Position numbers and translations under genes: made by a program. DNA of 64,000 nt from Hexactinellida sp. DTS-2022 (lineage: Eukaryota > Porifera > Hexactinellida). A model generated the notes under the pieces. That model did not search any database, was not told the DNA's origin, and was given only the letters and a program-made list of their open reading frames with translations. The stretch covers positions 6,686,501-6,750,500 of the forward strand of contig JAPNXP010000001.1 in assembly GCA_028753945.1 (NCBI GenBank), in the 5' to 3' direction. Below, piece after piece: positions 31,408-44,000 of this stretch (positions are counted from its first letter, which is position 1; each line of letters starts with the position of its first letter).

Positions 31408-31525
31408 CTCCTAGATGGCATAAATTTTTTGGTTCAGATCTGTTGTGAACTCTCGGAGGAGATATGAGGACAGACAGACTGACAAACAGACAGACATACA
31501 GACCATCCTACTACTTTATATATAT

Positions 31526-32086
31526 ACTAACCAGCCAAAAGAATTTGAACAATTGGAATTTTAATGCAGACACAATAGTCGTCTGGTAACTTAATAACGG
31601 CTGTTTAAACAATTCTGAAAATACAATAAATATATTGCTATAGTTATAAAGCAAAAATCTTTTGAATTCACGTCATTTTAGTCAATATCCATGAAGCGGC
31701 TTAAGTTTATCTGCCACGTGCCACTTGTGGCACAAGTGGCACAAATGGGAATGTGGCTGTATTTCAGTAGAATATAAACGTATTGATTTGAATTTAGGCA
31801 CCTAGAGTAATTCGACCATGTGGAATTCAAATCTGTAATCAAAACTTCTATATTCTCATTCAATCTTGATGATCAGAAATTATCCATTTAATTAGCTAAT
31901 TATATAGTTAATGAGTTTAACACCTCCATATAAATGTAAATTCAAAAATTTTGTTATTTTATTATACTTTACATATCGTTTTATGTAAATAGCAGTGTTG
32001 ATGCATCTACCAATGCTATTATGCTGCTAGAAACTTGAATGTATAAATACAAATTATTGCTGTTCAAATACTTTTGGCCGGTTAGT
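31526..32086. mobile_element. CTAACC-ended MITE, complete copy
   Basis: Inverted ends CTAACCAGCCAAAAGAATTT and AATACTTTTGGCCGGTTAG. The inner sequence is repeated, reversed, at 37531-38690, giving near-identical blocks such as CATTGGTAGATGCATCAACA. The ends resemble Tc1/mariner-type MITEs. Confidence 0.8.
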
Positions 32087-33216
32087 GGATTACAATCTAA
32101 TTTCATCTGTAAAATGAAGATAGCACTATTATTGCTTAGTACAAAGTCTTAGTGAGTTATTACTCACTAAAGCTTTAGTACCTTAGATAAATTATATTAC
32201 GTATAACCGGGGTGGGGTGGAAACACCTCGGCTGTTAACAGCAAACAGCAATTTCGTATTTGCTTGTAGATTAAAAAAAATTGAAATTTCTATGATATAA
32301 AAAGGTTGAAAGTTATACGTAGATGGGAAAGAAGTAAGGAGCGAGATTACATATTCAGCGAGGAGTCAAAATGCTGTTAACAGTTGCTAAGTACTCTTTA
32401 TAACAATCGCGTGTTGTTACTGATTGTAACAACACGGTAAAATTGAAATTTTAAGGATGTAAACTGAATACTTAGGGGAGGAAAGGTTAACTTTTAAAAA
32501 CAAATTAGATGTTATTAACAGTTAACAGCAAAATTGGCTGTTTAAAGCATTTCTGCCCTCCCTGCGTATAATCATACAAAGTGTATTATACAGCCATTTG
32601 TAAATACGCTCCTAATTCCGGTCTGACCCAATTTACATACGCCTAAATCACAAATTAATGTTACGGTATAGGAGAAGATCCAAATTTTCGCGCTCCTATA
32701 TTCAAATTTTCCAAAAATCTTACTCCTAAAGCGTCTCGAGCTCCTGGATAAATCCTGATTCCTTGATCATACACTAAAGTCTAAAGCCCTCGATAGATTA
32801 ATTTTCTTTACCGAGAATTCTGTTAATATCCTTCTTAGATAATATACTCAATATTCATTTAAGGGACAAATTGTTTTAATAAGATCGCATAGCATACTGT
32901 AGACTGGTTAATTTATGTTCGTTTTAACGAGAGTTTACTGTAATTAATGACTTGCAAACTTAGTTTACAGAGAAGTTAGAAACATAACAATTTACTATTT
33001 CAAGTTTATTTTTTAAAAGTTTTATCAAACAGGTATTCACAATTTATTGCTCACTGCTTCCAGCGGGTTAGCATTTCTTATGCTATCAATAATTAACAAT
33101 GTTAAATTATTTCAAGCTAGATGGAATGCTACTCGAGATTAGCATTTGTGATTTGATTTTTGACAAAATCTAATTCTTTATCCGATTTAATTAATTAATT
33201 AATTAATTAGTAACAA
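32087..33216. other. Gene-free AT-rich spacer
   Basis: Degenerate repeats only: a reversed ATTTATCCAGGAGC end near 32740 and a TTAA microsatellite at 33188-33208. No coding exon was supported. Confidence 0.4.
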
Positions 33217-34483: not shown

Positions 34484-36843
34484 TTAATTCACTTCCCATT
34501 GTTTCTCTTTGGATAGATTAACGGAAGCTGGTCTCGTGCCAGTTTTCTTTTCAACCATAACCAAATTATTTTCTGTTTCACTAGCCACTAACATCCCAGG
34601 AGGCATCTCGCTCTTGGCTTTCCCCAGTTTGAACCGCCTCACGGCCTTTCTCCTGCTGCCTAGCGTGTGGAACCCGAAGTTAATGGTTTCGTAATGGTTG
34701 CTTCGCGACTCCCTTTTGTAGCTGTGCAGTCCCTTCAGACTTGAAGTAGGTTTTAACAAGTCAGTGCCGAGTTTAGCTTTATTTATCTCGCTGTAGTGTG
34801 TGCTCTCGTCTTTGACTATGCCAGGCTTCTCGCCGAGAGGAGGAGGCGGGGGCGGGGTGGCAGAACTGAACACAGAGGGGTTCTGGGAGGAAAAGGATTC
34901 GTCTGAAAACTCAGAAATATTGTGCGGAGCTGAGATAGAGCTCGAGAGCGTAAAGTTCCCCTCTTGTGGTTTAGGTTCTAACATATTTTGTTTAGGAGGG
35001 TTGGGACAGGTAACGGGTATATCGGGGACCTCATTGGGATCTCGTGGCCTTATTAAAAATTGGTTGGCTTTATCACTTTTACCAAAGCTAAGTGACTCGT
35101 ATATATTAACCTTTTTTCTAATGGGCGTTTGTTTAATGCTATCGTACTGAACAGAACCGGTGTTGTTTACAGATGAAGTCGCCGCGGTCTCGGTGATACA
35201 AGGAAATTCGCGGCGCGGTTTGAAAATGGCGTGGTCGTACAAATCGGGCGTAGTGAACTGGGAGTGTGTCCTGAGGCTGGACAGCATTGGGTTTTCGGGC
35301 AGTTGGAATTGCGCCTTGGTCTTCCTATCGCTGTGGAGCATGGGCGGCTCGGACGGGCGTCTCCCTGTGTTCCCCACTGAGGGGTAGTCTCCGGAGTCTT
35401 GCAGAAGGTCCGAATTCCTTGTGAACATGCTCGGAGACTGGACGCGAGAGAGAGCTCTCGGCTTCATGATGACTGAGGCGTTGGAATGGGAGCGGACAGC
35501 TTTGTTGACCAGAGCTCTCGGGAGCGGCGGCTTAGTCGGCTTGTCACTGGCTATCACTGCTGCTAGTATGTCCGTCTCACTGGCCGAATCCTGCAGCTTG
35601 CCGCGCATGTCTCTCTTGGAAGGGCGCCTGCTAGGTGCCCCTATCACACTGTCGTCTGGCACTTGTTTGGGAATGAACTTGGGGTTGATTGTAGGGGGAG
35701 GGAGCTCATCGTCTCGCCCCATGGAGTGCATCTTTAAGCGGTGGATATTCTCGAACAGCTCGCGTCTCTGCTCGGTAATAACGAATATGGTTAAATCCCC
35801 GTACATTGACCCTGCGCTGAGACTGAGATGGAACTCTTCCGAGCACTTGTAGGACTTGATTACAGAGAGGGGAAACTCCCCTAGCATGACCCCGTCTATG
35901 GTAGCCAGCACCACCCTATCTCGGTAGACACAGAGGGTGCATTTCCCGGACAGCTTAAGTCGGTTAGTCCCCACTGTCTCCTTAATACGAACCACGAACC
36001 ATTTCATGCCTAAAGAACAAGTGGATAAATTTCCAATTTTTAACACAAACTAATAATTTATAATCGACTTACAATCAGGAGAGAGTGGATCTACGGTCCT
36101 CTTGGTGATCAGTTCGTGTATCCACAGGCTCCTCAGCTCCTCAGAGTCAGCAGCCATTCGGATATGGACACCCTTTGCACCGTGGGTAGTTATGTCAATC
36201 GTATACTTGTTACCTTTGATCACTGGACCCAGTGACACATCGAATCCTATATGCAAGTCGTGTTTCTCTAAGGGAGCAAATTTAGCGACGAATTTTGATG
36301 ACTTTTTATAGAACAACAGAGAAGTGAAAACTCCTTTTCCTGATTGTAAGACTACGTGCGTTTTCTTCCATTTTCCTTTCTTTTCAGTACCAGTCAGTAC
36401 ACTGAGGTTACTCTATAAGAAATATATTTATCAAAATAAAGTATCTGTTTGCCTCGATTAAATTTATGCCTTTGTTCGTGTAACTAAGAATAACTTGTCC
36501 TATTTTTGTCATAGTACATAGACAACTTTGAATTAATTTCATATTTTTTTAATTTTGAAGATTGGCTGAATTTGATTAAGAGTTGTAAGATTTATGTTTT
36601 GGTCCTTAGATCTATCTAGCCTTTAGTTTACCTATGTCGATATCGTAATGCCCGATATAGATAAATATTGCACTATCAGGAAATTCGCCGATATATTGTT
36701 GTCAATCATTGGATACAATTTATGTGATTATAACGAACCTCCAATATCTGAAGGTTGAATGTGCTGGCATCAGGAGAGAATTCTATTGTCACTGATTCTG
36801 GAATTTTTTTTGTCCTTCTCTGACTTCTACTTCTAAATGCCAT
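34484..36843 (-). CDS. DOK-like PH-PTB adaptor, paralogue A
   Basis: Exons on the minus strand are 36843-36739, 36412-36073 and 36009-34484: 1971 nt, 656 residues. Intron phases are 0 and 1. Residues about 40-145 form a PH domain (KGKWKKTHVVLQ near its start, SEELRSLWIHELI near its end). Residues about 150-245 form an IRS-type PTB domain (MKWFVVRI, RLKLSGKCTLCVYRD, SMYGDLTIFV). The tail is disordered with tyrosine sites of SH2-docking type (YDSI, YESL, YSEI, YETI) and proline motifs (KPPLPRA and a PPPPPP run) likely to bind SH3 domains. DOK proteins are recruited by receptor tyrosine kinases and usually damp Ras/MAPK signalling. Exon 1 is inferred from splice signals and phase; its donor GTTCGT is weak. 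Paralogue B follows upstream on the same strand with matching structure. IRS-type proteins share PH-PTB, so the DOK label is the best fit and not proven. Confidence 0.85.
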
Positions 36844-37361: not shown

Positions 37362-37853
37362 CTGGGGCCTTATTCACTAAACTTCTTAAACATATTTTGT
37401 GCTTAAACTAAGCATAAACTTAGTTTGTGCTAAGTTTAAACTAAGTTTAAGCACAAACTAGTCTGAAACTAAGTCGGTATTTACGAAGCAAAACTAAGTT
37501 CAAACTAAGTCTAAATTAGTTTGAACTTCACTAACCGGCCAAAAGTATTTGAACAGCAATAATTTGTATTTATACATTCAAGTTTCTAGCAGCATAATAG
37601 CATTGGTAGATGCATCAACACTGCTATCTACATAAAACGATATGTAAAGTATAATAAAATAACAAAATTTTTGAATTTACATTTATATGGAGGTGTTAAA
37701 CTCATTAACTATATAATTAGCTAATTAAATAGATATTTCTGATCATCAAGATTGAATGAGAATATAGAAGTTTTGATTACAGATTTGAATTCCACATGGT
37801 CGAATTACTCTAGGTGCCTAATTTCAAATCAATACGTTTATATTCTACTGAAA

Positions 37854-38561
37854 ATTTCACGGTACGTGGTATACCGATGGTATAATTAGGTATAACCAAT
37901 TATACCAAATTAGTGTCTAGTTTCGGCATATCACCTTATGCTTAATATTTGTTAAATTTTACCTAGATTACACCTAGATTATACCAATATTATACCACAA
38001 TATACCACTTATATTTCGAGTATTTAAGGTAGTATAGATCAGAGTGGACCATGGGTCAACATTGGTGACCCATGACCCATCTGACCCATCGCATTTGTGA
38101 CCCATGACCCATCGAGTGACCCATTGACCCATCGTGTTACCCATTGACCTTTTAAATATCTATTTTTTAATATCTAAACATTATGTAACACAATTCGACT
38201 TGCAATATATGTATGATGCTTGTCAATCAATTAACTTTGGTAGACTTCTAATACCAAATAAATACCCTGTAATGTTTCTGGGTTAATTTGGTTCGTACTA
38301 TAACTGGACGAACATCGAAATTCCAAATGGTTCATGGGTCATGGGTCACAGAGCCGTGACCCATGACCCATCTGAACCATCAATTTATGTGACCCATCTG
38401 ACCCATGACCCATGACCCATCGACCCATGGTCCACTCTGGTATAGATGTAGGTATATTAAATGTGTAATGGAAGTTTAGAATATTATACCGAACAATTCT
38501 TAATTTTGGTATAATTAATTATACCTAATTATACCATCGGTATACCACGTACCGTGAAGTC
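37854..38561. mobile_element. CACGGTACGTGG element (level 3)
   Basis: Inverted ends TTCACGGTACGTGGTATACC and its complement GGTATACCACGTACCGTGAA. Flanks share CTGAAA (37848-37853 and 38561-38566). The intact copy at 31526-32086 has a single CTGAAA at the same place, which confirms the insertion. Confidence 0.85.
38040..38439. mobile_element. hAT-type MITE, TSD GTATAGAT (level 4)
   Basis: Ends CAGAGTGGACCATGGGTC and GACCCATGGTCCACTCTG. Exact GTATAGAT copies flank it at 38032-38039 and 38440-38447. The interior is built of GACCCATGACCCAT repeats, many of them in both orientations. Confidence 0.92.
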
Positions 38562-39238
38562 TGAAATACAGCCACATTCCCATTTGTGCCACAAGTGTCA
38601 CGTGGCAGATAAACTTATGCCACTTCATGGATATTGACTAAAATGACGTGAATTCAAAAGATTTTTCACTTTATAACTATAGTAAGATATTTATATATAA
38701 CTATAGTAAGATACTTAACTGAATATTTCACGATAATATACTTATATTTTACAATTATTTAATTTATTTACGAATTATTTATCGTAACTTATCGTGGTTG
38801 TATCACTCTGAGTTTAGTTTTGAGAAGTTAAGAAAACTTCGCAAAAAGTAGTAATTACTTAGTTTAGACTAAGTTTAAGTTTAAGTTTTTGGATAAGTTT
38901 TGAGAAGTTAAATAAACTTAGCATAAACTAAGTCGAGACTTAGTTTAGACTTAGTTTAAGTTTAAGAAATGTTAGTGAATAAGGCCCCAGGGTTTCATCT
39001 ATAATCCCTCAGGGGGAGGGGGGGGGGTTTAATTACCTCTCAGAATGCTTAATCAACCACTTCCTAAGGAACAAGTTTTTATTTTACTGAATAGTTATCA
39101 GTTCCTGATTCAAATAATTGTTTACTTAATTAATTATCTTTATGGTAATGGTTCAGTAAACATTTGTAGCAGTCCATACTTACAATGCAAAGTAGCAGGA
39201 ATTTACGTTGGATAACTTTCACAATTAAAGTATATTAG

Positions 39239-41010: not shown

Positions 41011-44000
41011 CTAGTACTGTTCAGTGATTTCCTCAAGGGCGTAATGCTTGGGAGATGTAGATTTTTTTTTTTGGTTTGTATCACTTCCCCACTGTCTGTT
41101 CTCCTCGAGAAGGAAGTTCCCGTACCCGATATGATTATCTGTAGATGGAGACTTCTTCATTCCTTTGGACTTGGTCCCCCTCTCGGGCAGGGTAATGCTT
41201 TCGTAGTCCCTCAGCCTGGGAGAGGGAGGCAGGGGCGGGAGCCTTTTAGCTATTTTTGGGACTGCTGGAGCTTGTACGGGTTTCTTTGCGAGTATGGGGC
41301 GGTCAGGTATGACATCATAAGGGTTTAGTAACTCGTCGTTCAGATCGTCCGAGAGAATATCATGTAGGGAGTTTGTTTTTGCAAAAGGGATGGGTGTATG
41401 AACTACATTTTCTGCTTTCTCAAACAGATTCTGATCTGAGTTACTCCGCAAACGGAAACTTTCTTGTATGTATGACTGGTCTGCACTGTAGGGGCTGTTC
41501 TGAGCTCTGTTATGTGTTGGAGATAAAGCGGAGTACATGGTCGGAATGTTACCGGTGGAATGGCTAGCTTGGATTAAATCTGAAAATGCAATCACATCAT
41601 CTGTTCGCCCTAGAGGAAACTTGTTTTTTGTTTTTGTATTTTGATCCTGGAAATGGACAAGTGTATCGTAATCGTCGAAGTCGCATGAGTTTGTTGTTTT
41701 AATCCTATTAGCCTTGAATGGGCTGCCTTTCCTTTCGGGAGAGTGTGGGTGCGGGGTTGTGTTGAACTGAGGGCTGAATGAATCAAAATAATTAACAGGA
41801 TGTATTATTCTATGAATATCAGCGGGATTCGAAATTGTTTTCTTAACCCTATTTTCTTGCTTATTCGGCCAATTATTTTTCTGCAGTATGGGAGAAGCAT
41901 AAGGGCTGACTGTCCTATCCCCGTTCTGTTTCATACCAGGTAAAGGGTGGGAAATGTTGACCGGGATCTTTTTAAGAGCTCTGTGGTTTCTTTTAATTCC
42001 AACGATTTGCGTTTGGGGAAACTCACCTCTGGTGATGAGTGAGTTAAGGATCCGGAACAAATCTACTGTGCTGTCTGAATGGAACGAAATCTCTATATCT
42101 CCATACATTGAGTTTGGTTTAAACTTTATAGTAAACACATTTTTATCTGTTATGTACGAGTGTACAGCTGAGATCTGCCATTTCCCTAGCCTAGCGTGAT
42201 TGGCTAAGCTGCACAGCTCAATGTGGTCCTTGTACAGCAGTAGGTACGAGGGCGTGTTGAGTCTCAGCTTCACAACTTCAGGTGTGCTCATTGGTGTCAC
42301 CAAATACGTTAAACCTATGAGGATAGACCATAAATAACTATTATTGTTACATTCTATTTTTCGTTATACTTTAATTGACCAAATAGCAGGATTAAATTAA
42401 GCATGCTTAGTTTAACAAAGTCTAATACATACGTAGATATTATTGCTTATCATCATTTATGTATTTAATATTTCCGTATATAAATATATATGAAATTACT
42501 TATATAGAGCTGAGCTTTGTAGAGTTCAGTTTTTCACTATGTGTATTCATGCACTGAGAAAGGTCAGTTTTTTTCCAGAGTTCGAAATTGACCTTTAGAA
42601 AGTAAGCCTGGGCTTTTAGTATGGGATAAAATCTGAACTCTACAAAGCTCAGCTCTATATAAGGATTCCCAATATATATTATATTATGAGTTCCAGTGGC
42701 GGCGGAACCACGGGGGCTACGGGGGCTATAGCCCCCCTGAAGATAATTCTAGGGGGGCTTAGCCCCCCTAAAGTTCAGGCTTGTATTATAGGTCAAGTAC
42801 TGTGATATACTTGTTTAATCTTTCAGGGTTGCCAACCTCTGGAAACCAAAAAGCGGGAGGTTTTTGCCATTTTGGCGGGAGTTTACCAAAAATACGGGAA
42901 GTCGAAAGTGAAAAAGCGGGAGACTCAAAATATATGCTATTTCTTTGAATCTATCATGAATAGAACGATACAATATGATCAATTTGTATGTTTGGATATC
43001 TACAATTAGGAAAATGCTTATTTTTCTAGTTCTATCTATCAACTTCTTCCCGCGTATCTCGTATTCACCCAATGTATCTAATAATACAACAAAATTGAAA
43101 TAGCTAGAATAATGAATTATAATTTTTTTATATAAAGCATGTTATTAAAATTAGATATACGTAGATGTAGTTGATTTAAATATCTTCAAAGTTCTCGTAA
43201 TTTATGGATATTTTTCTTGACATTTCAAGGAATTTCATGACGATTAAAATGTCTTTTAATATTTAATCCACCCGTGGTTGCATAGATCGACATATAAACT
43301 AAACAGAAAAAATTCAGCATCGCATCTAGTATAATAACTTTCTGGAGGATGTAAGCCAAAGCCCACCCGAGATATTTTTAAAGAATTTCTTCCAAATTCG
43401 AATTAAAACATAATAGTACAGTGTATTAATAACTTAAGGGGCTAAATATTCTTAACTAACTTACAAGTAACGAGTAGAACAAAACTTGGCACTTGTATCT
43501 TGACTAATTTTATCAAAGAAATCCAGTTATTTACTTATTTATCATTAAATATTAGTATGGAATCAATTTCCAAAAAAAGCGGGAGTTTGAAATGTTTGGC
43601 GGGAGGTCGGGAGGATGGGAGAAAAAAAGGCAAAAAGCGGGAGAGTTGGCAACCCTGTTTTAATCTTTACCTGGCTAAGAGCAAATTTTGTATTTACACA
43701 TCAAATCAAGAAACACTGTTTATTGCCTGTGAAAGCTGTCCTAATTTAATTTCCACTTTAACTAGTAAATTCGACTTTAAAAGTACACATAAAAATTACA
43801 TAAAATAGATAGTTTTTGAGTTATGGCTCATTTTAAGAACTATGCATTTCCCTGTCAACCGAGGAATGTGTCAACATTCCATTTATATTTTCGATATATT
43901 TCATTCAACGAGTTATGCACTTCCTCATATTCCAATTTTGAACATTTATAACGCGTTTAACGATGTTAAAAGCAGGCTATAAAAACACGATAATTCCCAC

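Follow-up and report, generated by a model that had tools for sequence, protein, structure and literature searches.

Why should a transposon lie between two copies of its target site that stop 4 bp short of its ends? The question is raised by a segment of 1,629 bp that consists of four short DNA transposons, each inside another (levels 1 to 4, from the outside in), in the genome of Hexactinellida sp. DTS-2022 (Porifera; assembly GCA_028753945.1, contig JAPNXP010000001.1, positions 6,686,501 to 6,750,500 of the forward strand). This stretch of 64,000 nucleotides, hereafter the window, lies within contig C1 of the 112.4-Mb genome (18 contigs) that we searched. A preliminary description of the nest had set level 3 at a CTGAAA site and expected the edges of the inserted DNA to coincide with terminal inverted repeats (TIRs). 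That expectation held by half: at level 3, the repeated CTGAAA sits 4 bp off each TIR, and this discrepancy is what proved informative. We propose, with a probability of roughly 0.85, that the level-3 element was cut by a hAT transposase, that its flanks were hairpinned and reopened, and that the same element was then rejoined at the same site.

The 33-bp end of level 3, a hAT-like miniature inverted-repeat transposable element (MITE), matches 155 places in the genome when up to 3 mismatches are allowed. We fetched 64 loci, of which 6 lacked one end and 1 was a duplicate site, leaving 57 distinct sites; at 38 of these, an exact 8-bp duplication lies flush with the family ends CACGG...CCGTG. 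Known hAT ends begin CAGNG or CANNG, and those of level 3 have a C at the position where many hAT ends have a purine. The uninterrupted level-2 copy elsewhere in the window (hereafter the 31526 copy) does show the empty site ascribed to it, reading TTCT-ACTGAAAT-ACAGCC in reverse complement. The target is therefore not the 6-bp motif but the 8-bp ACTGAAAT, duplicated and carrying a 3-nt palindromic insert on each side.

The flanks of level 3 in the nest (the composite) read ...ACTGAAAATTT on the left and AAGTCTGAAAT on the right, and both follow one rule. Past the duplicated base nearest the element comes an insert that is the reverse complement of the bases closest to the element (bases 1 to b); at both junctions it is located between the first and second duplicated base, counted from the element. 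Using ACTGAAAT from the empty site of the 31526 copy, the rule predicts 22 of 22 letters across the two junctions. When flanks were exchanged in 33,000 trials, the best two-sided fit had 2 mismatches, compared to 0 for the composite. The one-base offset is required on the right side, and the left side permits either reading. The element is thus retained at a known empty site, with palindromic inserts at both joints as predicted.

A scar of this kind at one end is present in 12 other copies, comprising 9 of the 57 level-3 sites and 3 of 52 distinct level-4 sites with both ends (from 60 loci). At ten level-3 sites, a single clean insertion is the sole departure from an exact duplication, and the rule holds for nine of them (L082, L088, L090, L092, L134, L157, L158, L162 and L168), with inserts of 2–3 nt, five at the 5' end of the element and four at the 3' end. 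For level 4, the rule is obeyed by three of four clean insertions (L006, L008 and L118). Taken together, inserts between duplication bases 1 and 2 fit in 12 of 12 cases (lengths of 1–3 nt, 28 nt in total), compared to at most 5 of 12 in 20,000 trials with random inserts of equal lengths. Exchanging flanks among 30 non-standard sites yielded a perfect one-sided fit in 1.3% of pairs, about the same as re-drawing a site's own partner. The offset, in which one host base stays on the element, is required in 4 of the 12 copies (3 of them among the nine level-3 scars); plain palindromes without it were rejected as a general reading, as these four cannot be so read, and the offset was kept. Families with other kinds of duplication provide a weak control, with TA/TA in 18 of 20 level-2 copies and CWG in 21 of 25 level-1 copies (the other 4 not examined). 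To judge by their junction sequences, the 12 one-ended scars in both hAT-like families indicate that cutting and resealing has been recurrent in this genome.

The proposed course of events begins with level 3 landing in level 2 at ACTGAAAT. A hAT transposase would later have cut both ends, each time nicking one base outside the element and leaving that base on it. The chromosomal flanks would then close as hairpins and be opened a few bases away from the tip, which would yield palindromic (P) nucleotides, and end joining would return the element to the site that it had occupied. For the composite, resealing would have affected each end, whether in a single event or in two, and either before or after the entry of level 4. 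What we infer here is the enzyme, the hairpin, the end joining and a single event, not two, for the cuts at the two ends.

Several points weigh against this account. What is seen is an altered duplication and not an event, the timing being a reconstruction; one-sided scars are more numerous than two-sided ones, of which the composite is the only case seen; and the base beside the element can be read as part of a plain palindrome in 8 of the 12 cases, which do not prove the offset. Two clean insertions depart from the rule: that in L152, the tenth at level 3, is a palindrome without offset and is better read so than as a fit with two substitutions, and that in L005, the fourth at level 4, copies 7 bp of the TIR end, with CAGAGTG repeated between TIR and duplication (C11:12036806 region). 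Among all 109 sites, 18 (10 level 3, 8 level 4) are non-standard without an exact fit; 16 of these (9 level 3, 7 level 4) have no single-insertion reading, and the 18 divide into 2 that fit with one substitution, 3 that fit with two (L152 included) and 13 with eroded or unrelated flanks. The last 20 level-4 copies, taken in list order among those not yet in the sample, included 14 with both ends, 13 of them exact and none scarred, so scars are rarer in the level-4 family. The level-3 copies are also a non-random sample, having been chosen either for similarity to the composite copy or because a TIR end matched exactly or nearly so. Finally, we identified no active transposase with level-3 or level-4 TIRs. 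PF05699 candidates were found in the genome (150 of 638 scored, 150 of 150 above the cut-off), and no autonomous hAT partner with CACGGTACGTGG ends was seen when PF05699 matches were compared, by eye and not systematically, with some of 100 listed level-3 ends.

The first three of these points suit an alternative that we consider unlikely, in which the scars were made at insertion: gap filling of the 8-nt stagger would misprime and copy a few bases back before joining the element. Where the two readings differ, in four copies and on the right side of the composite, the base beside the element is the terminal base of the site's own duplication, whereas an element arriving by insertion would carry a donor base or none. 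The insert also falls precisely where the cut was inferred to lie for Ac/Ds (PMC1978519). Still less probable, in our judgment, is that level 3 was fully excised and that gap repair, using the sister chromatid as template, later brought it back while the P-nucleotides were retained accidentally. Templated restoration is known for other cut-and-paste elements. Hairpin-derived ends are indeed reported at hAT excision sites (PMC5873905 and PMC1978519), but copying requires matching 3' ends, so palindromic tips would be expected to be trimmed, and religation of an excised end should give just such a flank base attached to the element. The weakest alternative assigns level 3 to another superfamily with a 6-bp CTGAAA duplication and termini ATTTCACGG...CCGTGAAGT, as the CTGAAA on both sides and the nearly inverted extra 4 bp might suggest; we regard it as practically negligible and rejected it on the flanks of the family copies, with 8-bp duplications flush at CACGG/CCGTG in the 38 exact sites and ATTT on one side paired with AAGT on the other at none of the listed non-standard sites.

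In V(D)J recombination, an 'open-and-shut' joint forms when, after the recombinase has cut, the two ends of one break are joined to each other again, slightly altered. On our analysis, the resealed level-3 element would be the transposon counterpart of such a joint (for the term, see PMC3906580); the V(D)J case concerns RAG at antigen-receptor loci, whereas ours concerns hAT-like MITEs known from a genome assembly. The hAT chemistry itself is already known. A cut at the flanking base was inferred for Ac/Ds (PMC1978519), P-nucleotides in the Ac/Ds excision footprint are centred on the complement of the transposon-adjacent base (PMC5873905), and Hermes and Kat1 form hairpins on the chromosomal side, the Kat1 transposon having free 3' ends (PMC4763223). 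The excision footprints of hAT elements (Ac/Ds, Hermes and Tam3) are among the closest known counterparts of the scars described here. In those footprints, however, the element is gone and the flanks are joined together, whereas here each flank is rejoined to the element, making half a footprint. A related case is that of a Ds element whose TIR adjoins an inverted repeat of 598 bp, explained by transposase slippage and re-insertion (PMC1978519). Hairpin processing was likewise invoked there for inverted host DNA beside a retained Ds, but the repeat is much longer than the 1–3 nt at the original site seen here. Among the papers listed in our literature searches, we found no description of retained hAT copies with half-footprints; subscription journals were thinly covered, and earlier reports are possible.

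Two further observations concern level-3 copies. L088 (C13:2817995-2818345) and L155 (C11:10029747-10030108), on two contigs, have an identical 22 bp of flank on each side and an identical scar, and by their sequence are probably a duplicated segment or an assembly duplicate. In L163 (C14:3449267-3449627), the right flank is CTTTAGA-TTCTAAAG. This long and nearly perfect palindrome is perhaps the scar of a hairpin opened ~7 nt from its tip.

We next consider the nest in which the scars lie (Table 1). It is real, as the preliminary description held, and was seen once in the 112-Mb genome. No other genomic place matches across any of its junctions by more than ~16 bp among 40 scored of 1,999 candidates, where a second full composite would rank near the top, and its absence there points to one local history rather than a mobile composite element found at many loci. 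The nest is an ordinary one, a PIF/Harbinger-like element having been followed by a Tc1/mariner-like, a hAT-like and then a hAT element. The claim that this order can be read was borne out: empty sites support insertion in the order 1, 2, 3, 4, with that of level 2 found in level-1 copies L012 and L021, that of level 3 in the 31526 copy and that of level 4 as a single GTATAGAT in level-3 copies L071 and L074. No empty site was found for level 1, whose left flank (181 bp) is single-copy in the genome; the right flank was not searched. Reading insertion order from nesting is established practice, and nothing essential separates the earlier dating from the principle of nested-transposon chronologies as given for REANNOTATE (PMC2672092).

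Table 1 Features of the nest, with coordinates in the window.
Feature	Position	Strand	Remarks
Left scar ACTGAAA-ATT-T	37847..37857	+	11/11 letters as predicted
Right scar A-AGT-CTGAAAT	38557..38567	+	11/11 letters as predicted
Level 1, PIF/Harbinger-like MITE	37362..38990	.	TIR GGGCCTTATTCACTAA at 37365 and up to 38987; CWG flanks in 21/25 copies
Level 2, Tc1/mariner-like MITE, TIR CACTAACCGGCCAAAAG	37529..38694	-	left end intact beside T(A) of level 1; interrupted by level 3
Uninterrupted level-2 copy	31525..32087	+	reverse complement carries the level-3 empty site
Deletion breakpoint, level 2/level 1 right junction removed	38672..38713	+	two copies of an 18-bp direct repeat (38672-38689, 38696-38713); level 1 continues from 38714
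Level 3, hAT-like MITE, TIR CACGGTACGTGGTATACCGATGG...	37858..38556	+	interrupted by level 4; family ends CACGG...CCGTG
Level 4, hAT MITE, TIR CAGAGTGGACCATGGGT	38040..38439	+	duplication GTATAGAT at 38032-38039 and 38440-38447

The further claim that the relative age of the four families is thereby fixed is not supported, as a single nest dates four insertions only and the family divergences overlap. Median distances to consensus were 3.1% (level 1, left arm), 5.3% (level 2), 4.2% (level 3) and 4.7% (level 4), from samples of n = 29, 25, 58 and 53 that are biased low since copies were picked by similarity to the composite. The composite's private substitutions (3/167 in the left arm of level 1, 3/454 in level 2, 2/289 in level 3 and 0/399 in level 4) run in the expected order, a weak indication from counts too few for proof.

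PIF/Harbinger elements make a 3-bp TWA or CWG duplication. The 'perfect 19-bp ends' reported for level 1 are a genuine inverted match at 37362/38990, but the TIR proper is the 16-bp GGGCCTTATTCACTAA and the outer CTG/CAG is the CWG target site. Across 25 distinct level-1 copies with both ends, composite included, the flanks are CTG/CTG in 10, CAG/CAG in 6, CTG/CAG or CAG/CTG in 5 and other in 4. Identical CWG flanks thus occur in 16 of 25, and the composite (CTG at 37362-37364, CAG at 38988-38990) is among the 5 of 25 differing in the middle base alone, so that its repeat appeared 19 bp long. These mixed flanks differ by an A/T swap of the middle base; among the family loci (L009-L068) no level-1 copy has a transition at that base, and 4 have other changes. 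An element hairpin would pair the CTG/CAG triplets except at the middle base, and mismatch repair or a carried-over donor base could be the cause.

A TA duplication is the hallmark of Tc1/mariner elements. Level 2 was sampled from 23 fetched copies, 20 with both ends, and the 2 of these without TA/TA have 1-bp losses at the TIR end. The element had been described as a CTAACC-ended MITE with a relative at 31526-32086. The relative aligns, but the level-2 ends are CACTAACC...GGTTAGTG inside TA, and the composite keeps the left end only. That end adjoins level-1 sequence where the intact copies L012 and L021 read GAACTTAG, and level 2 probably entered level 1 at this TA, since reduced to T. At the right end ~100 bp are gone, the alignment with the intact copy stopping there, together with 78 bp (compared to L012) or 89 bp (compared to L021) of level-1 sequence beside the breakpoint. 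One deletion with a templated patch would account for the lost junction. The 18-bp direct repeat precisely at the breakpoint (38672-38713) resembles the templated insertions of end joining.

The alignment of 31526-32086 with the reverse complement of the composite holds up, although the gap at 37854-38561 is not its sole large difference, as had been expected. The two sides of the inner insert differ in identity, one matching at 98.8% over 324 bp and the other at 88.8% over 143 bp. This contrast raised the suspicion of gene conversion between the two level-2 copies, which lie 6 kb from each other. An alignment of 25 copies led us to reject it, since the divergence on the low-identity side stems mostly from indels and private changes of the 31526 copy, and rare variants unite the composite with the 31526 copy and L069 (C6:1986300-1987050) as one small subfamily. 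That two of its members are separated by 6 kb, with the third on another contig, suggests local hopping.

The innermost element is as first described, a hAT-type MITE with exact GTATAGAT on both sides. Its end has 548 matches in the genome, and 37 of the 52 distinct sites have an exact 8-bp duplication and 4 have one mismatch. The Ac-like 8-bp duplication preference is nTnnnnAn; in the first 24 exact level-4 duplications, the most frequent base is T at position 2 (13 sites) and A at position 7 (18 sites).

Elsewhere in the window are genes for HPF1 and a cytosolic carboxypeptidase, which would by themselves point to an animal or a near relative of animals. The nest itself is flanked by long reading frames at 34484-36046 and 41011-42303, both on the minus strand, neither of which has a Pfam match at E 0.001. 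Their N-terminal regions are similar by eye, and they are possibly a tandem gene pair.

Successful jumps leave excision footprints, and we know of no genomic record of failed ones. If the scars described here are resealed cuts, a single assembly would be enough to estimate the frequency of hAT transposase cuts that fail to mobilise the element, and the distance from the tip at which the host opens hairpins could be estimated as well. Being so simple, the insert rule could be used to look for scars in any genome that contains hAT MITEs. For annotation, a strict search for 8-bp duplications would miss scarred copies or misassign the duplication length, as happened with the 6-bp CTGAAA here. On balance, we lean towards the view that hAT elements are commonly cut and resealed in the germline. 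Counting the composite, 10 of 58 level-3 copies (17%) are scarred, so about one-sixth of the sampled family would record at least one failed jump, the junctions would be a log of transposase activity, and many 'imperfect' hAT duplications may be resealing scars rather than mutations.
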